From the IMG/VR virus record IMGVR_UViG_3300044675_002527, positions 1 to 25,745 of that record: 25,745 nucleotides of DNA; one strand, written 5' to 3'. The DNA comes from a virus. The position numbers were made by a program, and so were the translations under genes. This document shows positions 2,954-23,897 of the stretch, piece after piece. A model generated the notes under the pieces. That model was not told the DNA's origin. It did no database searches and saw only the letters and a program-made list of their open reading frames with translations. Numbering within the stretch: position 1 is the first letter of the stretch; each line of letters opens with the position of its first letter.

Positions 2954-3250
2954 ATGTCTATGACTGCGCCATTCTCTCCGGGCGAGACGCTCACGCTTGC
3001 CGTGACGGACGCCAGCAGCAGCGCAACCTTTGGCACAGCGGGGGCGCAAGCTTCCGTCATCGAAGTGCAGAACCTTGGCACGCTGACCTGCTTCATTGCC
3101 TTTGGCGCGTCTGCCACAACGGCGGGCTATCCGATTGGCGCCGGTCAGTCCAAGGTGGTCAGCAAGGCGCCAGGCGTGGCGCAGATCGCGGCCATTTGCG
3201 CGACGGGGCAGACCACCACGCTGTGTGTCACGGCGGGCCAGGGGCGCTAA
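2954..3250 (+). CDS. Small beta-rich phage structural-type protein, 98 aa
   Basis: ATG 2954 is preceded by GGAG at 2942-2945. The sequence is almost free of charged residues in its core and alternates small and hydrophobic residues (TLAVTDASSSATFGTAGAQ, then VIEVQNLGTLTCFIAFG), as expected of a small beta sandwich. Its pattern of a value attached to a reference level (FGASATTAGYPIGAG) recalls small virion proteins and the N-terminal domains of the two glycine-rich proteins downstream, but I cannot claim homology by eye. It sits between terminase and a receptor-binding-type gene, 11 bases before the latter's RBS-led TTG start. Exact function is unknown; a decoration or fibre-associated protein is possible. 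Confidence 0.65.
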   Translation: MSMTAPFSPGETLTLAVTDASSSATFGTAGAQASVIEVQNLGTLTCFIAFGASATTAGYPIGAGQSKVVSKAPGVAQIAAICATGQTTTLCVTAGQGR

Positions 3251-3254
3251 CTTG
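3240..3254 (+). promoter_or_regulatory. Ribosome binding site and TTG start
   Basis: AGGGG at 3240-3244 lies 7 bases before TTG at 3252-3254. No ATG or GTG in the same frame gives a sensible start here: the frame stays open further upstream, but using it would overlap the preceding gene heavily. This site therefore decides an unusual TTG start for the receptor-binding-type protein. Confidence 0.65.
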
Positions 3255-4535
3255 TTCCAGCGCATCAACACGCGGTTGCGGGCAGGCGGCAACGCCAGCG
3301 GCATTGCGTTTGATTTTAGGTCTGGCGCGCTTGATCCGCGGATTAGCTTCACGCGGGCGTCTGCTGGCTGGTATTTCGACAGCGCTGGCAATCTGGTGCA
3401 GGCCAGCACGAACGAGCCGCGCTTTGATTATGATCCTGCCACGCTTCAGGCGCGCGGGTTGCTGATTGAAGGCAGCAGGACGAACGGTATTCGTAACCCA
3501 AGGCTTGAAGGTGCTGTTGCCGGAACGCCGGGGACCAACCCAACCAATATGGTATTTTCTGGCCCTGCGGGATTAACCCAGCAGATTGTTGAAATTTCTA
3601 CAGAAAATAACATGAACTTTGTTTCTGTGCGTTGGTCTGGTACCACCTCTGCATCTGGGCGACTTTCTTGGTTTATGGAAAGTGGTGGCATCATAGCCGC
3701 TACGGTTGGTCAAACCTTTGCAGCATCAAACTTTTGTAAAACTGTAGCTGGAACCTACCCTACCGCCGGTGCGATTTTTTCATTTGCGGAGCAGGATGCT
3801 ACTGCAACCACAATTGCAACCGGGACTGTCGCGGTTCAAGCGCCGTTTGCAAGTGGCACAAGAATAAGTGCATCGCGTGTTTCCGCCTCCTACACTATGG
3901 CACAGGCAACCGCTGCATTTGTGCGCCCCGTTTGGAATTCGGACACAATCAATTCCGGCGTTGCCGTTGATGTAACCATCCGCTTTGCTGCCCCGCAGAC
4001 AGAACTCGGCAGCTTCCCCACCAGCCCGATCTTCCCCGCTGTTGGATCGCCTGCTGCTTCCACGCGCGCGGCTGATAATGTGTCCGTCGCAACTTTGACG
4101 CCTTGGTTTAATCCAAACGAAGGCACCATATTAGTTGAATATCAGCGACCATTTGTTGGATTTAATCAATTTGAAGTTAATTTTTCTGACGGAACCTATG
4201 GTGAGTTTATTGGTCTTTATACAAGTGCCACAAATCAAATAGCCGAAATTAGACAAGGCGCCGCAAGTCAAGCTGGCCTAGTTTTGGAGGCTGGTGCTGG
4301 CGTTAATGATCGTTTGAACAAAAAGATATTAGCTTATCAAGTCAATAATTTTGCCGCTTCGTTGAATGGTGCAGCACCTATTGTTGATACATCAGGTTCC
4401 GTTCCGATTGGCTTGACCACCATGAGAATAGGAACCTTTCAGGGTGGGAGTCAGTTTTGTAGCGGCTGGATCAGCCGAATTGCCTATTACCCAACGCGGC
4501 TTTCCAACACCACGCTGCAAGGTCTAACATCATGA
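3252..4535 (+). CDS. Receptor-binding / tail-fibre-type protein with lectin-like C-terminus, 427 aa
   Basis: The start is TTG with AGGGG 7 bases upstream. Residues 31-78 hold a phage module I recognise from tail and virion adhesins: ISFTRASAGWYFDSAGNLV, then PRFDYDPATLQARGLLIEG and the end SRTN. The middle (about 80-280) is Ser/Thr-rich beta sequence. The last 140 residues (GTILVEYQRP to RIAYYPTRLSNTTLQGL) look like a laminin-G/concanavalin-like jelly roll, a common carbohydrate-binding fold. From about 3480 the DNA turns clearly AT-richer than its neighbours: bases 4141-4200 are 33% GC by hand count, against 72% for 5041-5100 in the portal gene. This suggests an acquired or swapped host-range cassette. 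Its place between terminase and portal is unusual for a P22-like order. The next gene overlaps its stop by ATGA. Confidence 0.75.
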   Translation: MFQRINTRLRAGGNASGIAFDFRSGALDPRISFTRASAGWYFDSAGNLVQASTNEPRFDYDPATLQARGLLIEGSRTNGIRNPRLEGAVAGTPGTNPTNMVFSGPAGLTQQIVEISTENNMNFVSVRWSGTTSASGRLSWFMESGGIIAATVGQTFAASNFCKTVAGTYPTAGAIFSFAEQDATATTIATGTVAVQAPFASGTRISASRVSASYTMAQATAAFVRPVWNSDTINSGVAVDVTIRFAAPQTELGSFPTSPIFPAVGSPAASTRAADNVSVATLTPWFNPNEGTILVEYQRPFVGFNQFEVNFSDGTYGEFIGLYTSATNQIAEIRQGAASQAGLVLEAGAGVNDRLNKKILAYQVNNFAASLNGAAPIVDTSGSVPIGLTTMRIGTFQGGSQFCSGWISRIAYYPTRLSNTTLQGLTS

Positions 4536-4825
4536 GTTGGACCTATACCTATCACCGCTTTGCCAATCGCGCGGCGTTTGACGCGGCTTGTGATGCGGCA
4601 GGCTTGCCGCGTGAGAATGGGCAGATCGCCCCGCCTGAAACCGTGGCGCTGGATGTGATTGGCGCGCTGCATGACCGGGCCGAGTTCAACGCGCTGGGCA
4701 TCGTGATCAAATTGCCGGTTTTGCTGACCGGCTTTCATGTCAACGCGGCCTGGTCCGGTGAAGTGCCGGCGCCGTTCCGTGCCAGTCGCATCTCACCTGC
4801 CACACCTCGGAGGGTTTTCGCGTAA
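4532..4825 (+). CDS. Small unknown protein between adhesin and portal, 97 aa
   Basis: The ATG overlaps the previous stop (ATGA), and its own TAA overlaps the portal ATG (TAATG), so it is translated in a coupled chain. The N-terminus is helical and aromatic-rich (MSWTYTYHRFANRAAFDAAC). The middle gives PPETVALDVIGALHDR and a hydrophobic stretch GIVIKLPVLLTGFHVNAAW that could be a beta hairpin rather than a membrane segment. The C-terminus is basic. Small genes after fibre genes are sometimes fibre-assembly proteins, but I recognise no such family. GC returns to the high local level here, unlike the adhesin upstream, so it probably belongs with the portal side of the module boundary. Confidence 0.65.
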   Translation: MSWTYTYHRFANRAAFDAACDAAGLPRENGQIAPPETVALDVIGALHDRAEFNALGIVIKLPVLLTGFHVNAAWSGEVPAPFRASRISPATPRRVFA

Positions 4826-7062
4826 TGTCGCACGAACCCGATGACCTGGATTACGATACGCCCGCCGGCAAATACCGCCGTTGGCTGATCGAGATCGAGC
4901 AGGCCGACAAATGGTGCCATGATTGGCACGACACGGCCCGCCGCTGCCTGCGCCGGTATCGTGACGAGCGCCGCAATGCCGCGTCTTCCGATGACGGCGA
5001 GCGGCGCATCAATATTTTCTGGTCCAATGTGGCGACGCTGCAGCCGGCGCTTTATGCGCGCCGCGCCAAGCCTGTGGTGGAACGGCGCTTCAAGGACGCC
5101 GACCCCATCGGCAAGACGGCGGCCGAAGTGCTGGAGCGCGCGGTCACTTTTGCGACCGATAGCGAGCAATTCGACGAGGTTATCAAGCAAGCGCGCGATG
5201 ATCGGCTGATTGTTGGCCGTGGCACGGCTTGGGTGCGCTATGTGCCGCACTTCCAACAGATGCAGCCGCCGACGCCCGCTGATGGTGTTGGCATCACGGA
5301 TGACGCTTCCGAATACGAGGCTGAAGCGCCCGAACAGCCCGGCGATATGCTGGTGTTCGAGGAAGTGGCGCATGATTATGTTGCCTGGGCTGATTTCCTT
5401 ATGTCGCCCGCCAAGACCTGGCGTGAAGTGCGCTGGGTAGCGCGCCGGGTGCAAATGACGCGGCACGAATTGGCGGAGCGGTTCGGCGAGGAAATCGGCC
5501 GGGCCGTGCCGTTGGCCGCGCGCTTGCAGCAAGACAACTCCGACACGCCAGAAGCGCGCTTCCGTGATGGCTTGGCCGCGCGGGCCGAGGTCTATGAGAT
5601 TTGGGACAAGGCCGAGCGCAAGGTGTGCTGGATTGCCAAGGGCTATGAGGCGCCGTTGGATGAGCGCGACGATCCGCTGCGGCTGCGTGAGTTCTTCCCT
5701 TGCCCGAAGCCTTTGTTTGCCACCACGACGACCGATAGCCTGATCCCGAAGCCGGATTTCCTGCTTTACAAGGATCAGGCGAATGATTTGGATGATGTCA
5801 CCTATCGCCTGTCCAAACTGACCGAGGCGTGCCGGGTTTCTGGCGTTTATGACGCATCGCAGGACAGCAGCCTTGGGCGGTTGTTCCAAGAGGGTGGCGA
5901 CAATAAGCTGATCCCGGTCAACACCTGGGCGGCCTTTGCCGATAAGGGCGGGCTGCGCGGTGTCATGGATTTCGTGCCGCTGGATGGGGTGATTGCCACC
6001 ATCCGCGAATTGACGGCGCGTGAGCAGGCGCTCAAGGCGCAGATTTACGAGGTGACGGGTATTTCAGACATTGTGCGGGGTTATTCCGCACCATCTGAGA
6101 CGGCCACGGCGCAGCAGATCAAGGGCCAATTTGCTGCGTTGCGCTTGCAGGAACAGCAGGCCGAGGTAGCGCGGTTTGCGCGTGATTTGATTGCGATGAC
6201 GGCGGAGATCATCGCCGAGCATTTCCAGCCGCAGACGATTGCGCTGATGTCTGGCTTGCAGGAGCAGGCGCCGGAGTTCCAGCAGGCCTTTCCTATGGCG
6301 GTGATGCTGCTGCGCCAAGACGCCATGCGGAGTTTCCGCATTGAGATCGAGACGGACAGCACGATTGCCGTTGACGAGCAGGGCGACAAGCAAGCCGCGA
6401 CCGAGTTTCTGACCGCGATGGGCAATTATATGGCGACCAGCCTGCCCATGGCGCAGCAGGCGCCGGAATTGTTGCCGGTGGTAGGGCAAGGCGCGGTATT
6501 CTTGGCGCGGCGCTTTCGGGCCGGCCGGCAATTGGAAGGCGCCATTGATCAGGCGTTCCAGGCGTTGCAGCAGCGCGCGCAGCAGATGCTGCAGCAGCAG
6601 CCTGACCCGGCCACGCTGAAGGCGCAGGCTGATGAAAAGCGGCTGGCGCTGGAGGCGGATATTAAGGCGCGTGAATTGGCGTTGCGTGAGCAGGAATTGA
6701 CCTTCAACGCGGATTTGAAGGCCCGTGAGATGGGCTTGCGTGAGGCGGAAATGGCGCAGGCGGCGACCATTGAAGCGCAACGCTTGCAGGATGGCCAGGC
6801 GGCGCGGGCTGAAGCGCGCAAGGATGCGTTGCTGCCTGACCGCGAAGCAATGCTTGGAGAGAGCGAGGCGCAAATGCGAGAATTGGCAGCGGCTTTGGCG
6901 GCGTTGGGCCAGAGCCTTGAAGCGATGCAACAGCAACACGCCAGCACGTCGCAAATGCAGGCGCAGGCCTTGGCGCAATTGGCGGCTTCCATGACGGCGC
7001 CGAAGCGCGTGGTGCGGGGGGCTGATGGTCGCGCCATGGGCGTTGAAACCGTATTCAATTGA
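4825..7062 (+). CDS. Portal protein, P22-like, 745 aa
   Basis: This is the dodecameric ring at the packaging vertex, through which DNA enters and leaves. The length (745) matches P22-type portals of about 725 residues and is much longer than HK97-type portals. Residues 1-130 carry the helical start with RINIFWSNVATLQPALYARR, followed by the portal-typical stretch IVGRGTAWVRYVPHF. The central part has stem- and clip-like segments (NDLDDVTYRLSKLTEACR, then EVTGISDIVRGYSAPSETA). From about residue 575 the protein becomes a long Gln/Ala/Glu-rich coiled coil (QRAQQMLQQQ, ADIKARELALREQELTF), as expected of an extended C-terminal barrel. It starts at the TAATG overlap. An unbroken 384-residue antisense frame (4735-5889) is a shadow of its codon use. 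Confidence 0.93.
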   Translation: MSHEPDDLDYDTPAGKYRRWLIEIEQADKWCHDWHDTARRCLRRYRDERRNAASSDDGERRINIFWSNVATLQPALYARRAKPVVERRFKDADPIGKTAAEVLERAVTFATDSEQFDEVIKQARDDRLIVGRGTAWVRYVPHFQQMQPPTPADGVGITDDASEYEAEAPEQPGDMLVFEEVAHDYVAWADFLMSPAKTWREVRWVARRVQMTRHELAERFGEEIGRAVPLAARLQQDNSDTPEARFRDGLAARAEVYEIWDKAERKVCWIAKGYEAPLDERDDPLRLREFFPCPKPLFATTTTDSLIPKPDFLLYKDQANDLDDVTYRLSKLTEACRVSGVYDASQDSSLGRLFQEGGDNKLIPVNTWAAFADKGGLRGVMDFVPLDGVIATIRELTAREQALKAQIYEVTGISDIVRGYSAPSETATAQQIKGQFAALRLQEQQAEVARFARDLIAMTAEIIAEHFQPQTIALMSGLQEQAPEFQQAFPMAVMLLRQDAMRSFRIEIETDSTIAVDEQGDKQAATEFLTAMGNYMATSLPMAQQAPELLPVVGQGAVFLARRFRAGRQLEGAIDQAFQALQQRAQQMLQQQPDPATLKAQADEKRLALEADIKARELALREQELTFNADLKAREMGLREAEMAQAATIEAQRLQDGQAARAEARKDALLPDREAMLGESEAQMRELAAALAALGQSLEAMQQQHASTSQMQAQALAQLAASMTAPKRVVRGADGRAMGVETVFN

Positions 7063-7079: not shown

Positions 7080-7487
7080 ATGGCCGTGCAGCTTTCCGTT
7101 GCCGTGCGTAATGCGCGGTTGGACGCGATTGAAACGACCGCCGGCGCATCGGCGGTGATGAAGATTTTCACGGGCAGCGCGCCCGCTAATTGTGCGGCGG
7201 CAGATAGCGGCACCGTGCTGGCGACGATCAATCTGCCGTCCGATTGGATGGCCGCCGCAAGCAGTGGTAGCAAGGCAAAAAGCGGCACTTGGCAAGACCT
7301 AAGCGCCGATAACACCGGCACGGCGGGGCATTTTCGCGTGTACGACAGTAGCGCCACGACATGCCACATTCAAGGCGTAGTATCGGCCAGTGGTGGCGGT
7401 GGCGATTTGATTGTGAGTTCTACATCGTTTACGGCGGGGCAGTCCTTCACGGTCAATACGTTTACCCTGACGGACGGGAACGCATGA
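7080..7487 (+). CDS. Conserved small phage virion-type protein, 135 aa
   Basis: The sequence MAVQLSVAVRNARLDAIETT, with the following IFTGSAPANCAAADSGTVLA and NLPSDWMAAASSGSKAKSG, is a pattern I recognise from small proteins repeatedly found among structural genes of alphaproteobacterial and other proteobacterial phages. No experimental role is known to me. After a short N-terminal helix the protein is beta-rich and ends in alternating Ser/Thr/Phe strands (SFTAGQSFTVNTFTLTDG). It comes 17 bases after the portal, and its stop overlaps the start of the first glycine-rich protein (ATGA), so it is co-translated with the adhesin pair. A decoration or adhesin-anchoring role is possible but unproven. 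Confidence 0.75.
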   Translation: MAVQLSVAVRNARLDAIETTAGASAVMKIFTGSAPANCAAADSGTVLATINLPSDWMAAASSGSKAKSGTWQDLSADNTGTAGHFRVYDSSATTCHIQGVVSASGGGGDLIVSSTSFTAGQSFTVNTFTLTDGNA

Positions 7488-8788
7488 TCCTCCTCACCTC
7501 CACCTCCGATAAAATCCGCCTTGTCACGGATACGGCGGGGGATATTCGCGTTCAGGCGTCCTATGTGGATTTGTCGGGAACCACGGTCACGCCGGGGCGG
7601 CTGAATACCGCGATTGCCACTGATACCACGACAGATGTTGTTTTATCGCCTGCGTCATCCACGCAGCGGAACGTGAAATTCCTCAGTATCTGGAACGACA
7701 GCGCAAGCGCAGCGAACAAGATCACGGTGCTGCATACTGATGGCACGACTGCGGTGGACCTGTATCAAGTGTCGCTGCCCGCACAGTCCGGCGTTGTGTA
7801 TCTGGATGGGCAGGGCTGGACGCTGTACGGCAATACGCGCCCGACCAATATCCAGACTTTCAGCGCAAACGGCACTTGGAACAAGCCAACCAATTTCACA
7901 CCCAAGATAGTGCTGGTTCGCATCTGGGGCGCAGGCGGCGGTGGCGGTGGCGGGGCTTCGCTTTCTACTGCGGCTATCACCAAAGGCGGCGCTGGCGGGG
8001 GCGGCGGATGCCGCGTTGAGTTTATCTTCACCGCTGATGCGCTGACCAATTCCGTATCTGTCACCATTGGCGCTGGCGGTTCTGCTGGTGCTGCTGGCGC
8101 GGCTGGTGGCGCAGGTGGCAATGGCGGCGCAGGCGGTAACACGACTTTCGGCAGCTACCTGACCGCTTACGGTGGCGGCGGCGGTGTGGGCGGGCAAACT
8201 TCGGCTGTTGCTACGGGTAGCGGCGGCGGGGGCGGATGCCATGCTGCGGGCGGTTCTGGTTCTGGTGGTACGGTTGGCACTGGCGGGCTACCAACGGGCG
8301 GTGGACCGGGCATTGGTGGTCAAGGCATTACCGGCAGCGCCACATCTGGCGGCACAGCACATTATGGCTGGGAAGGCGGTGGCGGTGGTGGTGGGTCAGC
8401 AAACACCCCGGCTGGCGTTGCTGGTGGCGGTTCGGTTTGGGGTGGCGGGGGCGGCGGTTCTGGTGGACATCGTAGCGCAACACCCGCAGTTGTCGTAGCC
8501 ACTGCGGGCGGCGGCGCCAATTCCGCCGTAGGTGGCGGCGGCACGGCTGGGGCGTCTGGCGCTACCCCCACCCCTGGAACCCAAGGCGCTGCAAGCAACA
8601 ATGTTGTCGGCGGTCAAGGCGGCGGTGGCGGCGGTTCCACAGTGACGGCTTCCACTTCTGGCGCTGCTGGTGGTGCTGGCGGGCAAGGTGGTGGCGGTGG
8701 CGGCGGTGGGGGTGCTGGTAATAACCCCGGCACTGGCGGTGCAGGCGGTGCTGGTGGTGATGGTTATTGCGTTGTGATGTGCTGGTGA
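7484..8788 (+). CDS. Glycine-rich adhesin-like phage protein, copy 1, 434 aa
   Basis: The start is the ATG at 7484, inside the ATGA overlap with the previous gene; the frame is open further upstream but that part is a shadow. Residues 1-112 form a beta domain (MILLTSTSDKIRLVTD, then TQRNVKFLSIWNDSA and HTDGTTAVDLYQVSLPAQSG) that I recognise from other phage structural proteins. A short hinge (NIQTFSANGTWNKP, then VLVRIWGAGGGGGGG) opens the glycine-rich domain of about 290 residues, where runs of 5-9 Gly alternate with variable loops such as TSAVATGS and HYGWEG. It lacks the strict Gly-X-Y of collagen. A polyglycine-II sandwich as in the gp38-type adhesins of T-even phages is the closest model. 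Likely a receptor-binding tip. It is paralogous to the next gene. Confidence 0.75.
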   Translation: MILLTSTSDKIRLVTDTAGDIRVQASYVDLSGTTVTPGRLNTAIATDTTTDVVLSPASSTQRNVKFLSIWNDSASAANKITVLHTDGTTAVDLYQVSLPAQSGVVYLDGQGWTLYGNTRPTNIQTFSANGTWNKPTNFTPKIVLVRIWGAGGGGGGGASLSTAAITKGGAGGGGGCRVEFIFTADALTNSVSVTIGAGGSAGAAGAAGGAGGNGGAGGNTTFGSYLTAYGGGGGVGGQTSAVATGSGGGGGCHAAGGSGSGGTVGTGGLPTGGGPGIGGQGITGSATSGGTAHYGWEGGGGGGGSANTPAGVAGGGSVWGGGGGGSGGHRSATPAVVVATAGGGANSAVGGGGTAGASGATPTPGTQGAASNNVVGGQGGGGGGSTVTASTSGAAGGAGGQGGGGGGGGGAGNNPGTGGAGGAGGDGYCVVMCW

Positions 8789-8794
8789 CGCGCC

Positions 8795-10087
8795 GTGATC
8801 CTGCTTACATCCACGTCCGATAAAATCACGGTCACAACGGGCGCAGCCGGAACGATTGGGGTTTTTGCGTCTTGGGTTGATTTGAATGGCACCACGGTTA
8901 CGCCTGACCGCGCCAATTTTTCAATCACGAGCGCGACCACGACGGATGTTGTCGCGTCTCCGGCGTCAAGCGTCACGCGCAACGTCAAGCTGCTGTCTGT
9001 CTGGAATGACGGCGCCACGCAGGATGTTTCGATCACGCATACCGATGGCACTACGGCGGTTGATTTATGGGCAGGGTCTATTCCCGCGCAATCCGGCGTG
9101 GCGTTTGATGAGGCGTGCGGCTGGAAAATCATCGGGGCGGAAACACCCGCTGATATTCAGACCTTCACCGCGCCTGGTGGTCGCTGGATCAAGCCGACTT
9201 CTTTTCAGCCGTCGTGGATTTTGATGCGCGTTTGGGGCAGTGGTGCCGGTGGTGGGGCTGGGGGTTCTCTCGCGACCGCTGTTGTGGCCAAGGGCGGCTC
9301 TGGCGGCGGCGGCGGCGCAATGGCAACCGCCATAATCCCAGCGGATTTCGTGCCGGATTTTCTCAATGTTGCTATTCAGTTTGGCGGTCTTGGTGGGCTT
9401 CCCGGCGCCGCTGGCGCTGCGGGTAGTGATGGTAACAACGGAAGCTCGTCTTTCGTAATCCCTGCACATTCTAATCCAATACTTGCGGCGGGTGGTGGAA
9501 CTGCTGGTCGTGGTGGGGCTATCACCGCCGCCTCTACCTTGGCTGGTGCTGGCGCATCGGCGCATTCTACTGGCGGTGGAAATATTACGGGTCCAGGGTA
9601 CTCAATGATTGGGACCAGTGCCTCTTCCGGGGCTGCTACTAACGGTCCCGCATGGGAAGGCGGCGGCATGGGCGGCGGTAGCAACGCCACGCCACTGTCT
9701 TTAGCTGGCGGCACATCGCGCTTTGGCGGCGGCGGTGGTGGATCAGGTGGGCATCATAGCGCCACGCCAGCGGTGGTTGACGCATCTGCGGGCGGTTTAA
9801 CAGGTCCAACCGTAGGCTCTACCGCGTCAGGCGGTGGCGGCGCTGCGGGAACGTCTGGCGCAACACCAACGGCAGGCACAAACGGCGCTGATGGAACTGC
9901 CGAATACGGTGGGCAAGGCGGCGGCGGCGGTGGTTCTACGGTTGCCGCGTCAACTTCTGGCGCAGACGGCGGCAATGGTGGTCGCGGCGGTGGTGGCGGC
10001 GGTGGCGGTGGTGTGGGGATGAACCCTGGCCTTGGTGGACGCGGCGGGCAAGGTGGCCCTGGATACGGATGGATCGCGACATGGTGA
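8795..10087 (+). CDS. Glycine-rich adhesin-like phage protein, copy 2, 430 aa
   Basis: The start is GTG at 8795, six bases after the stop of copy 1; it aligns residue for residue with the ATG of copy 1. The first 110 residues are roughly 60% identical to copy 1 by eye (ILLTSTSDKI, TTVTP, RNVK, HTDGTTAVDL, PAQSGV all shared). The hinge IQTFTAPGGRWIKP and VWGSGAGGGAGGS then leads to a glycine-rich domain. In it, blocks such as SGGHHSATPAVV and QGGGGGGSTVAASTSGA match copy 1, while the intervening loops differ (for example FVIPAHSNPILA). The pattern of conserved Gly frame with varied loops suggests a duplicated receptor-binding protein with different specificity. The last bases overlap the next small gene. 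Confidence 0.75.
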   Translation: MILLTSTSDKITVTTGAAGTIGVFASWVDLNGTTVTPDRANFSITSATTTDVVASPASSVTRNVKLLSVWNDGATQDVSITHTDGTTAVDLWAGSIPAQSGVAFDEACGWKIIGAETPADIQTFTAPGGRWIKPTSFQPSWILMRVWGSGAGGGAGGSLATAVVAKGGSGGGGGAMATAIIPADFVPDFLNVAIQFGGLGGLPGAAGAAGSDGNNGSSSFVIPAHSNPILAAGGGTAGRGGAITAASTLAGAGASAHSTGGGNITGPGYSMIGTSASSGAATNGPAWEGGGMGGGSNATPLSLAGGTSRFGGGGGGSGGHHSATPAVVDASAGGLTGPTVGSTASGGGGAAGTSGATPTAGTNGADGTAEYGGQGGGGGGSTVAASTSGADGGNGGRGGGGGGGGGVGMNPGLGGRGGQGGPGYGWIATW

Positions 10088-10293
10088 AAGCAGGCGAGAA
10101 GCGTTTTGCATTGGTGCGGGGTGCTGATGGTTTAGTGGTGAATACATGCGTGTGGGATGGCATCACGCCATGGAATGATCTGCCCCCAGGAATTAATGAT
10201 ATTGAATGCCCGGCGTATGTTGATCCAGGCTGGCGATATGTTGGCGGTAAATGGCTTCCGCCTGAACCGCCGCCCGAGCCGCCGCCTGAATAA
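10081..10293 (+). CDS. Small phage protein downstream of adhesins, 70 aa
   Basis: I start it at ATG 10081 (MVKAGEKRFALVRGADGLVV), which overlaps the stop of copy 2 by seven bases; an in-frame ATG at 10069 would add four residues. The rest reads NTCVWDGITPWNDLPPG, then IECPAYVDPGWRYVGGKW, and ends in the repeated tail PPEPPPEPPPE. This layout (a short beta unit stating a value, then D-P-G-W-x-Y-x-G-G-K-W and a proline tail) is common in small phage proteins next to fibre genes and in C-terminal parts of fibre-assembly proteins. A chaperone or cap for the adhesins is possible but inferred from position. The stop overlaps the next start (TAATG). Confidence 0.65.
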   Translation: MVKAGEKRFALVRGADGLVVNTCVWDGITPWNDLPPGINDIECPAYVDPGWRYVGGKWLPPEPPPEPPPE

Positions 10294-11072
10294 TGGCGCG
10301 CACCGGCACATTTGACCCTCAGATACAGGCGCTTGCGTGGTTCGACACACAGGCGTTTGCGGAGGGTTGGTTTGCAGATGATCTTATCCCGCCGACAAAC
10401 ACAGGTATTACCGGCGATTTAACTGTTACGCTTGCCGATGTTACGCTTTCGGCGGATGGCACAGTAGCCAATGGCGCATCGGGCGATTTAGCTGTCACGC
10501 TTGCCGATGCCACATTGGTAGCTGATGGAACCATTACGCAACCCGGCATCACTGGCGATTTATCCGTAACCCTAGGGGCAGTGACGCTCTCCGCAGACGG
10601 CACAATCACGTTGCCGAGTATCATCGGCGATCTGGCCGTGACATTGGAGGCCGCCATTTTGGCGGCAACCGGCAGTGGCCCATCTGATGAACAAACGCGC
10701 GGCGGCTTTTACACCAAGGAAGATCGCAAGCGCCTGGCACGCCTGGCGCAACTGCAAGCGCAACGGCGCGACCGCCAGCGCGATGAGCAAGACATTTTCC
10801 GCAACGCCTTGGGCGCCGCTTATGACGCGGCGCTGGGGCTTGTGGATGAACCAGCGGCAGAAACCCGCGCCGAAGTGCGGGAAGCCATTGCAGAGGCCGC
10901 GCAAACGGCGCCTGAGCCTTACCGGGCGGAAGTGCAACGCCTGCGCGACCTGGCGCGGCAGGCCGAGACGCTGGCGCAGATTGAGCGCGTGGTGACACGC
11001 ATCGCGGCCATTCAGGCAAGGGCGGAAGCCGACGCCGATGATGATGACGCCGTGCTGATGTTGATGGGGTAG
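10293..11072 (+). CDS. Repeat-containing phage structural-type protein, 259 aa
   Basis: The N-terminus (about residues 1-35) contains PQIQALAWFDTQAFAEGWF. Residues 39-129 are four tandem units of 20-24 residues with the pattern G-D-L-x-V-T-L-x-x-x-T-L-x-A-D-G-T, which should form stacked beta strands. From about 130 the protein changes to highly charged helix (YTKEDRKRLARLAQLQAQRR, later EVQRLRDLARQAETLAQIER), ending in an Asp run (DADDDDAVLMLMG). A beta stalk joined to a coiled coil suggests a rod-like virion part or fibre. I do not recognise a named family, although similar G-D-L/T-L-S-V-T-L repeats occur in other phage proteins. It begins at the TAATG overlap with the previous gene. Confidence 0.7.
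   Translation: MARTGTFDPQIQALAWFDTQAFAEGWFADDLIPPTNTGITGDLTVTLADVTLSADGTVANGASGDLAVTLADATLVADGTITQPGITGDLSVTLGAVTLSADGTITLPSIIGDLAVTLEAAILAATGSGPSDEQTRGGFYTKEDRKRLARLAQLQAQRRDRQRDEQDIFRNALGAAYDAALGLVDEPAAETRAEVREAIAEAAQTAPEPYRAEVQRLRDLARQAETLAQIERVVTRIAAIQARAEADADDDDAVLMLMG
10407..10679 (+). repeat. Four in-frame tandem coding repeats of about 70 bp
   Basis: The units start at about 10407, 10479, 10548 and 10620 (24, 23, 24 and 20 codons). Each encodes the core G-D-L-x-V-T-L followed by T-L-x-A-D-G-T or a close variant; the last unit is the most diverged. DNA identity between units is lower than protein identity, so the array is not recent. Unit number could vary between related phages. Confidence 0.7.
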
Positions 11073-12504: not shown

Positions 12505-12517
12505 GAGATAACCCATG
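12503..12517 (+). promoter_or_regulatory. Strong ribosome binding site for the major capsid gene
   Basis: AGGAG at 12503-12507 overlaps the TAG stop of the scaffold gene and is 7 bases before ATG 12515. It is one of the two best Shine-Dalgarno matches in the window (the other, AGGAGG at 13524-13529, serves the next gene), in keeping with the high copy number of coat protein. Confidence 0.75.
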
Positions 12518-13522
12518 GCCGTATCCCCCGGCTTGAATGAAGTGGTGACGACCACCCTTCGCAATCGCTCCGGCAAGCTTGCCGACAACGTATCCCGCAA
12601 CAATGCCCTGCTGAACCGCCTGCGCGAACGCGGCAAGGTGAAAACCTTTGCCGGCGGCCGGTCCATCGTGCAGGAAATCGAATATGCGATGAATGGCACT
12701 TATCGCCGGTATTCCGGCTATGAAGTGCTGAACATCGCGCCGTCCGACGTGATGACGGCGGCCGAGTTCCCGATCCGCCAGGCGGCGGTGGCGGTGTCGA
12801 TTTCCGGCCTTGAAATGCTGCAAAACAGCGGCAAGGAAGCGGTGATTGATCTGCTGGAAAGCCGCATCGGCAATGCCGAGCGCACTTTCATGAACAGCTT
12901 GTCGTCCGACATTTACAGCGACGGCACCGCTTCGGGCCAGATTACCGGCCTGCAAGCGCTGATCGCCAATTCGCCGGGTTCCGGCACCATTGGCGGCATT
13001 GATCGTGGCACTTGGCAGTTCTGGCGCAACATCAGCTTCTCTGCCGTGTCTGACGGTGGCGCGGCGGTCACCAGCGCCAATGTGCAGTCCTACATGAACC
13101 GCGTTGCCATTCAGTTGGTGCGTGGCAATGACGGGCCGGACCTGATCGTGGCGGACAATAACTATTACCGCCTGTATCTGGAAAGCCTGCAGGCCATCCA
13201 GCGCGTGACCGATGAGCGCACCGCGGCTGCTGGTTTTGCCGCCCTGAAATACTACGGCGCGGGCCGTAGCATTGACGTGGTGCTTGACGGTGGTTTCCAG
13301 GGCTTCAGCACTGACCCCGGTGGGGTTGGCGGTGCGCCGACGGATCGGATGTATTTCTTGAACACGAATTACATCCACTATCGCCCGCACCGTGACCGCA
13401 ACATGGTTCCGCTTGATCCTGACCGTTTCAGCGTCAATCAGGATGCCATGGTGAAGCTGATCGGCTGGGCCGGCAACATGACCCTTTCCAATGCGCGCCT
13501 GCAGGGCGTGCTGCGCGCCTAA
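12515..13522 (+). CDS. Major capsid protein, 335 aa
   Basis: The N-terminus LNEVVTTTLRNRSGKLADNV, the following NALLNRLRERGKVKTFAGGR, and the later AAEFPIRQAAVAVSISGLEM, QNSGKEAVIDLLESRI and NAERTFMNSLSSDIYSDGTA are those of a widespread capsid family of the HK97 fold in proteobacterial tailed phages. The C-terminal part has RMYFLNTNYIHYRPHRDRNM, consistent with the E-loop-to-A-domain beta sequence of such coats. Its position after a scaffold gene and its strong ribosome binding site fit. The high-GC codon use matches its neighbours. I am sure of the role; the exact subfamily relative to P22 gp5 cannot be settled by eye, as this protein is shorter than P22 coat (about 430 residues). Confidence 0.93.
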   Translation: MAVSPGLNEVVTTTLRNRSGKLADNVSRNNALLNRLRERGKVKTFAGGRSIVQEIEYAMNGTYRRYSGYEVLNIAPSDVMTAAEFPIRQAAVAVSISGLEMLQNSGKEAVIDLLESRIGNAERTFMNSLSSDIYSDGTASGQITGLQALIANSPGSGTIGGIDRGTWQFWRNISFSAVSDGGAAVTSANVQSYMNRVAIQLVRGNDGPDLIVADNNYYRLYLESLQAIQRVTDERTAAAGFAALKYYGAGRSIDVVLDGGFQGFSTDPGGVGGAPTDRMYFLNTNYIHYRPHRDRNMVPLDPDRFSVNQDAMVKLIGWAGNMTLSNARLQGVLRA

Positions 13523-22348: not shown

Positions 22349-22495
22349 TTTCCCGGCAAGCCAAGCGGCACCGAAGCCGCAAATAAGGGCAAACGCCAAT
22401 CGTTCGATTGGGTTTTCCGTAGGCGGGAACGACAGCCAAGCGGCTGTCCCCGCAATGCAGGCGATTAAGCACCGCCACCAAACAGCGTCACGCAT
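22289..22495 (-). CDS. Possible small two-helix membrane protein on the opposite strand, 68 aa
   Basis: The gap between the ejection gene and the tail fibre gene (22349-22544) holds no good + strand frame, but on the minus strand an ORF from ATG 22495 encodes a protein with two clear hydrophobic segments: residues 6-23 (WWRCLIACIAGTAAWLSF) and 32-52 (RLAFALICGFGAAWLAGKLW), followed by a basic tail (DRVSRSLLARQRRD). The frame extends upstream to 22567, but that part would cover the start of the fibre gene. The 3' end overlaps the ejection gene by 60 bases. The topology resembles small holins or antiholins. The ribosome binding site is weak (GGTG/GGGG) and no terminator is seen, so it may be chance. 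Confidence 0.35.
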   Translation of the reverse strand: MRDAVWWRCLIACIAGTAAWLSFPPTENPIERLAFALICGFGAAWLAGKLWAGLDRVSRSLLARQRRD

Positions 22496-22544
22496 CCCCG
22501 CACCATACCCGGTAGCGGCCCCTTTGTCATGGAGAAACCCGCCC

Positions 22545-23897
22545 ATGTCCCGTAACGGTTCCGGCACTTACACGCGCCCCCAATCGGATTACATCCCCGG
22601 CACGACTATCCTGGCATCATCCCTCAATTCAGACCTGAACGATATGGCGTCTGCCCTGACCGCTTCACTGGCGCGTGATGGCCAGACCACGCCAACGGGC
22701 AATCTGCCGATGGGCAATTTCCGGCATACAGGCGTTGCAGACGGTGTGGCCCGCACGGATTACGCGGCGCTTGGGCAAACGCAAAACGGCGCCTTCCTGT
22801 GGGGCGGCACGGCGGGCGGCACGGCCAATGCCGCGACCATCAGCTTGAACCCGCCATTGGCAGCATACGCGGCGGGGCAAGCGTTTCGGTTTATCAGCAG
22901 CGCGGCCAATACCAGCAGCGTCACGTTGAATGTCAACGGCGTGGGCGCGGTGGCGTTGAACAAGGGCGATGGCACGGTGGCGTTGAGCGCGGGCGACCTG
23001 CCGGCGAGCGCTATGGTTACGGTGGTGCATGACGGGACGCGGTTTCGGTTGATTGATCCGGCGATTTCGCCAACGCTTGACGCTATAACGCCAGCATGGG
23101 TGGACCTTGCCAGCGCAACAACGACTGACCTAAGCACGGTTGGCGCCAATGTGCGGATTACCGGCACAACGACCATCACAGGCTTTGGCACGGCGCCAAG
23201 CGGTGTCACGCGCAAGTTGCGGTTTGCAGCGGCGCTGACGCTGACGCACAACGCGACCAGCCTGATTTTGCCAGGTGCAGCCAACATCACCACGGCGGCG
23301 GGTGACACGGCAGAGGCTATCAGTCTTGGATCTGGCAATTGGGTGTTGGTAAATTTCACGCGCGCGGCGGCAGGTTATGCGGGCAATATCCTGTTGGCCA
23401 ATCCGGTGGCCGCTGCGAATATCGGCATCAATCGCGGCACGGCCCAGGCCACAACCAGCGGCACGGCAATTGATTTTACCGGGGCAACTGGCATTCCCGC
23501 AGGAGTGCGGCGCGTTACGCTGATATTTGATGATGTCAGTTTAAGTGGCACGGAGCGTTTGCTTGTGCAGCTTGGGGCTGGATCAATCCAAACAACAGGA
23601 TATCTGGGGTCGTCCGGCGGTATTTTTGGACCCAATCAATGCAATAGCCTTTCATTTACGACAGGATTTATTACCGAGCTTGCGAACGCGGGGGTTTTCC
23701 GCATGGGCGCCATGCAGTTTTTCAATATCAGCGGCAATAAATGGGTTCAGTCGCATTCAATCGGGGATAGCTCTGGTAGCGTTATGCATGGCGGCGGCGT
23801 TGTCACCCTGTCCGGCGTTCTGGATAGGCTTCGCATTACCAACACCGGGTCAAACACCTTCGATAACGGCAGCGTCAATCTTGTGTGGGAGTTTTGA
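22545..23897 (+). CDS. Tail fibre protein, 450 aa
   Basis: ATG 22545 follows GGAG at 22531-22534. The first 75 residues are a standard virion-attachment domain of podovirus fibres: SDYIPGTTILASSLNSDLND, ALTASLARDGQTTPTGNLPM and GNFRHTGVADGVARTDYAAL. The shaft (80-290) is beta-rich with Ala/Gly/Thr-rich strands (TLNVNGVGAVALNKGDGT). The C-terminal 160 residues begin near GINRGTAQATTSGTAIDFTG and form a separate sandwich domain ending LDRLRITNTGSNTFDNGSVN and LVWEF, which is where receptor binding is expected. From about 23490 the DNA is lower in GC (48% for 23521-23580 by hand count), as if the tip had been exchanged. It precedes the lysis genes directly. Confidence 0.85.
   Translation: MSRNGSGTYTRPQSDYIPGTTILASSLNSDLNDMASALTASLARDGQTTPTGNLPMGNFRHTGVADGVARTDYAALGQTQNGAFLWGGTAGGTANAATISLNPPLAAYAAGQAFRFISSAANTSSVTLNVNGVGAVALNKGDGTVALSAGDLPASAMVTVVHDGTRFRLIDPAISPTLDAITPAWVDLASATTTDLSTVGANVRITGTTTITGFGTAPSGVTRKLRFAAALTLTHNATSLILPGAANITTAAGDTAEAISLGSGNWVLVNFTRAAAGYAGNILLANPVAAANIGINRGTAQATTSGTAIDFTGATGIPAGVRRVTLIFDDVSLSGTERLLVQLGAGSIQTTGYLGSSGGIFGPNQCNSLSFTTGFITELANAGVFRMGAMQFFNISGNKWVQSHSIGDSSGSVMHGGGVVTLSGVLDRLRITNTGSNTFDNGSVNLVWEF

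Follow-up and report, generated by a model that had tools for sequence, protein, structure and literature searches.

A fixed pair of putative TNF-like/polyglycine adhesins in a phage gene cassette that is exchanged between unrelated phages

Two adjacent genes of an uncultured phage, here termed A and B, most probably encode paired receptor-binding adhesins with a TNF-like/polyglycine fold, which would be exposed on the virion and which share a mobile cassette with a small gene for a putative helper. The stretch of DNA analysed, called the window, is the entire IMG/VR record IMGVR_UViG_3300044675_002527 (25,745 bases). Judged by gene content alone, its source is probably a phage of the short-tailed type. 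For this class of proteins the fold, the adhesin-like role and the loop pattern are already known. New are the old and fixed pair, the linked candidate for a mini-chaperone and the transfer between phages; a literature search found no description of a tandem pair of Gly-rich adhesins.

PHROG matches identify the terminase large subunit (1495-2940), the portal (4825-7062) and the major head protein (12515-13522), as well as an amidase, a GNAT protein, an ejection-type protein and lysis genes. The layout is close to that of Myxococcus phage Mx8 and its relatives, whose portals are 31-39% identical to that of the window, and the annotations of the named relatives examined list no gene of the size and kind of A and B in the interval between portal and major capsid genes. 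The features in this interval are listed in Table 1. The TGA stop of the gene preceding A overlaps the ATG of A. Homologues of this gene occur in many, not all, of the related loci, often 5' of A, and it lies outside the constant cassette. At the other side, the co-inherited unit reaches downstream of B to about 10387, and the 10293-11072 gene varies from phage to phage beyond its shared 5' end. Its product contains about three repeats of ~32 residues (GDLxVTLxxxTLxADGT) after the AWFD...GWF motif and has a charged, probably coiled C-terminus.

Table 1. Positions of the adhesin genes and adjoining features in the window
Feature	Position	Strand	Product or extent	Remarks
Upstream gene	7080..7487	+	135 aa	virion structural protein family; phrog_3758, E 5e-34
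Gene A	7484..8788	+	434 aa	N-domain 1-118; TNF-like/Gly-rich ~121-434 (predicted)
Gene B	8795..10087	+	430 aa	GTG start; N-domain 1-116; TNF-like/Gly-rich ~119-430 (predicted)
Most variable stretch of B	9425..9634	+	residues 211-280	column entropy 1.4-2.0
Small gene	10081..10293	+	70 aa	candidate minimal fibre chaperone; Pam3 gp25-like beta-sandwich
Downstream gene	10293..11072	+	259 aa	first ~31 codons (AWFD...GWF motif) form the 3' edge of the cassette

Gene B begins six bases past the stop of gene A, and both products match the PHROG tail-fibre family phrog_863. The proteins are 52% identical over 427 residues (BLASTP, E 9e-62), rising to ~60% in the N-domain (about residues 1-118). Within the Gly-rich domain a block of the form SGGHxSATPAVV reads SGGHRSATPAVV in one copy and SGGHHSATPAVV in the other, and QGGGGGGST is present in both. 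Trees of the relatives, whether built from the N-terminal, the TNF-like or the C-terminal partition, place A and B in distinct clades with support. Since the similarity starts in the non-repetitive N-domain and the two clades are supported separately, it exceeds what low complexity would produce by chance. The original prediction of adjacent paralogues with N-domains about 60% identical and matching Gly-domain blocks is thus borne out. The Gly-rich domain, given there as 290 residues, is present but spans ~310 residues (~121-434) when the framing strands are included.

The structure of A was predicted by AlphaFold2 using 33 relatives (pLDDT 73.9, pTM 0.75), while the AlphaFold2 model of B is of modest confidence (pLDDT 58.5, pTM 0.59); confidence is low at residues 253-295 of A and 251-361 of B. 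In the models a C-terminal TNF-like sandwich encloses a glycine-rich bundle, as in fibre tips of the Pam3 gp24/Bxb1 gp33 type. Residues 121-434 of A superimpose on Bxb1 gp33 with a Z score of 23.6 (215 residues, 2.6 Å), followed by the Pam3 tail fibre gp24 (Z 16.0) and the Gly-rich domains of ALK/LTK (Z 7-9). The top structural matches of B are the same (Bxb1 gp33, Z 17.7; Pam3 gp24, Z 14.3), and the alignments to both phage proteins span ~190-215 residues for A and B. Bxb1 gp33 was also the sole PDB match in a sequence-profile search (E 0.0019), and 199 viral models match at E<=0.001, many being Gly-rich or tail proteins. A direct sequence comparison of A1 with Pam3 gp24 was not significant (hhalign E 0.084, probability 0.7); hence, the kinship to Pam3 gp24 rests on the fold. 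The N-domain alone found no convincing match in the PDB, the best Z scores being 5.9 (DUF4425) and 6.6 (1nc7). Structure prediction had been suggested as a check of the Gly-rich domain, and it yields a folded TNF-like sandwich with a Gly-rich bundle and strong fold matches. S16 gp38 is absent among the structural matches listed for A and B. Of the proposed polyglycine-sandwich adhesin, a Gly-rich adhesin-type fold like that of Bxb1 gp33 and Pam3 gp24 is thus supported; the listed matches do not show membership in the S16 gp38 type, nor does a gap in such lists count against it. According to the models, the label polyglycine adhesin is correct in kind, with TNF-like/Gly-rich as the nearest predicted fold.

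A published description groups Bxb1 gp33, the Pam3 fibre, S16 gp38 and ALK as glycine-rich bundles of the polyproline-II type (PMC13243192). The Gly-rich domain of Pam3, to which receptor recognition is assigned, was reported to have a stem that is conserved and a tip that is hypervariable (PMC9608196). Column entropies over 31 distinct A/B pairs reveal the contrast of conserved glycines and variable residues that marks fibre tips of the Pam3 gp24/Bxb1 gp33 type: glycines of the C-terminal domain have a mean entropy of 0.25-0.26, and the non-Gly residues of 196-420 reach 1.10 (A) and 1.29 (B), compared with 0.73 (A) and 0.80 (B) in the N-domain. In A the entropy peaks at residues 261-300 and 331-370; the most variable stretch of B (Table 1) presumably comprises receptor-facing loops. 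For the L022-like lineage a simple counting method, in which a few windows are noisy, gave dN/dS values of 0.88 and 0.87 at columns 211-240 and 241-270 of B and below 0.2 in most N- and C-terminal windows. The originally proposed pattern, in which the Gly frame is conserved and the loops vary, therefore holds between lineages, mainly at residues 211-280 of B. Within the window's own species, however, A and B are nearly constant, with stretches spanning them 98.4-100% identical at the DNA level (L003, L004, L005, L007, L009). A different gene of this species does vary among strains. In L003, L004 and L009 the 3' part of the tail-protein gene at 3096-4535 has given way to other sequence, and L044 lacks this part; the TTG at 3096 is a questionable start for the gene. 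The swapped stretch (~3548-4488) has a lower GC content, is flanked by DNA 97-99% identical and looks like a receptor gene switching at the strain level.

The open reading frame of the small gene is listed from 10069, but its most likely start is the ATG at 10081, which overlaps the last codon and stop of B; an "MV" start is conserved among its relatives. Among the cassettes examined, all those with two or three copies are followed by this gene. Six single-copy loci lack it (L112, L114, L116, L126, L129, L134), and in four of these the protein encoded directly next bears a WF-type motif at its N-terminus. Starts resembling the AWFD...GWF of the 10293-11072 product were seen 3' of the Gly-rich adhesin in the single-copy loci L114, L116 and L129. 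The small protein has no Pfam match, and its best profile match in the whole PDB set is the Pam3 chaperone gp25, with an E value of 0.14. In a direct pairwise comparison it resembles residues 4-61 of gp25 (P 2.5e-4; score 27.4 against a maximum of 16.9 among 300 control ORFs), the beta-sandwich that embraces the fibre tip (PMC9608196). Because a Pro/Glu-rich tail after ~60 residues takes the place of the C-terminal helical trimerisation domain, we liken the protein to the sandwich part of gp25 only, and from this sequence similarity infer a candidate minimal chaperone.

Wherever a viral locus extends far enough past A, B follows A, and this order is fixed. Most of the more distant loci have two copies, two have three (L099, L109), and a single copy is found in L112, L114-L116, L126, L129 and L134. 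B forms one group with a support of 100/100 and A one with 80/98; the single-copy proteins fall outside both, and in the triple arrays the last copy groups with B and the other copies with A. Taken together, these placements fit one old duplication and the later addition of a copy derived from A. The middle copies of the three-copy arrays (L099:5001-8940 and L109) are long-branched members of the A group, and the first copy of L109 is seemingly frameshifted.

The fixed pair could also mean that A and B are subunits of one obligate hetero-oligomeric fibre rather than independent adhesins, which would explain why they are never apart in this lineage. Consistent with such a mixed fibre, distances among A loops and among B loops correlate beyond what distances in the N-domain explain (partial r 0.63, permutation p 0.001), relatedness being only partly controlled in this comparison. 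However, joint inheritance by itself could yield this correlation, relatives with one copy manage without a second, and there is also a form with three copies. We regard an obligate mixed fibre as unlikely, while it is the strongest of the alternatives.

Whichever way the two proteins assemble, their genes have travelled between phages. The DNA of L008 is 91.7% identical to the window over 7470-10387; the similarity ends at 10387, and none is found outside the A/B cassette. L011 is 91.5% identical to gene A, running to the contig end, L010 90% identical to window positions 7080-8863, and L006 matches at 82%. No homologue of the window's portal was found in the sequenced DNA of L006, L008, L010 and L011, and the portals of L006 and L010 belong to another family, phrog_156. 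The cassette lies 3' of a lambda J-like central tail fibre in L011 and near a minor tail protein gene in L008. With ~91% DNA identity of the cassette on differing portals and backbones, the cassette (about 7470-10387) crosses between unrelated phages, apparently of podophage and siphophage types as far as genes indicate morphology. Elsewhere in the window, the 3' part (23148-23897) of the fibre gene at 22455-23897 is 74% DNA-identical to L011:4004-4741.

The location of A and B between the portal and major capsid genes, beside a gene whose PHROG family is classed under "head and packaging", makes head attachment conceivable, with both proteins serving as capsid decoration or fibres for weak adhesion to cells or surfaces rather than specific tail-based receptor recognition. 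We consider this improbable. A place at the portal side also suits tail-associated proteins of short-tailed phages, the nearest folds are those of tail fibre or tail-tip proteins, and in L011 and L008 the cassette accompanies tail genes.

The N-domain of A and B also occurs on proteins that lack the Gly-rich domain and have quite different, Gly-poor C-termini. A tblastn search with A in named phages gave one match, restricted to the N-domain of a protein with a non-Gly C-terminus. Since the same N-domain bears different C-terminal domains in other phages, it probably acts as a common virion mount. Gly-poor proteins with this N-domain were observed in L119, L120, L122, L124, L125, L127, L128, L130-L133, L135-L138 and L049; L119 has three of them consecutively.

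The adjacent paralogues with common blocks such as SGGHxSATPAVV had suggested that the two genes serve as templates for recombination and that gene-conversion tracts might be detectable. No such tracts were found. All four partition trees separate A from B (94/90 in the middle partition), and the sliding-window identity of A and B is 0.485 within and 0.481 between lineages, with a largest difference of +0.03. Gene conversion between A and B was rejected on these grounds, and it is very improbable that the second copy mainly serves as a template for reshuffling loops; over the sampled history the sequences indicate an old, non-recombining pair. Equally remote is the idea that the Gly-rich parts are disordered low-complexity filler shaped by neutral slippage, which would account for the Gly-rich coding sequence, the stretches of low AlphaFold confidence and some indels, but was rejected in view of purifying selection across most of the domain, near-constant lengths (429-442 aa in nearly all relatives), conserved glycines beside variable neighbours, the folded model and the match to Bxb1 gp33.

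Among known systems, gp24/gp25 of Pseudanabaena phage Pam3 (PDB 7ypx/7yfw; PMC9608196) resembles the cassette in its TNF-like and Gly-rich domains and in the gene order, the chaperone gene coming after that of the fibre; the beta-sandwich of this chaperone is similar to the small protein. Pam3, however, is a myophage. It has a single fibre gene, the fibre carries a helical stalk at its N-terminus, and the chaperone is full-length, including the helical trimerisation domain, whereas the window encodes two paralogous adhesins, each with an N-domain of beta type, and a partner of 70 aa. Gp33 of the tail wing brush of mycobacteriophage Bxb1 (PDB 9d93) is the best structural match to the C-terminal domain of A, but it is encoded by a single gene of a mycobacterial siphophage and leaves the N-domain wholly unaligned. 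S16/PP01 gp38 (PDB 6f45; PMC12892980) likewise has Gly-rich motifs with hypervariable receptor loops in between; its own features are a ten-strand PGII sandwich and a beta-helix domain, and it caps the gp37 trimer. ALK and LTK share the TNF-like sandwich with a Gly-rich insertion, but they are animal receptor tyrosine kinases, and the similarity is one of fold only.

For A and B as virion adhesins we propose that the N-domain probably mounts both proteins on the virion, that the TNF-like sandwich would organise the bundle of Gly-rich strands and that the receptor is presumably contacted by the variable turns that link successive Gly runs. After one old duplication the copies have diverged, while A, B behind it and the small gene are passed on together; the product of the small gene probably helps to fold or shields the Gly-rich domains, as gp25 does for gp24 in Pam3. 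The cassette moves among unrelated phages that presumably share hosts. More tentatively, it may be a self-contained mobile unit in which two permanently paired, non-recombining adhesins and a sandwich-only mini-chaperone dock on podophages and siphophages through the common N-domain and the adhesins act jointly, either in a mixed fibre or on two receptors; we think this full version rather doubtful.

A recent paper regards the distribution of polyglycine tips in phages as an open question of interest that sequence searches can hardly address (PMC13243795), and such tips are so far known from few solved structures. The A/B family offers dozens of relatives with a conserved mount, defined variable loops, a fixed pair and a candidate chaperone in one exchangeable unit. 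With this unit one can ask directly whether receptor range is tied to the cassette and not to the phage backbone.
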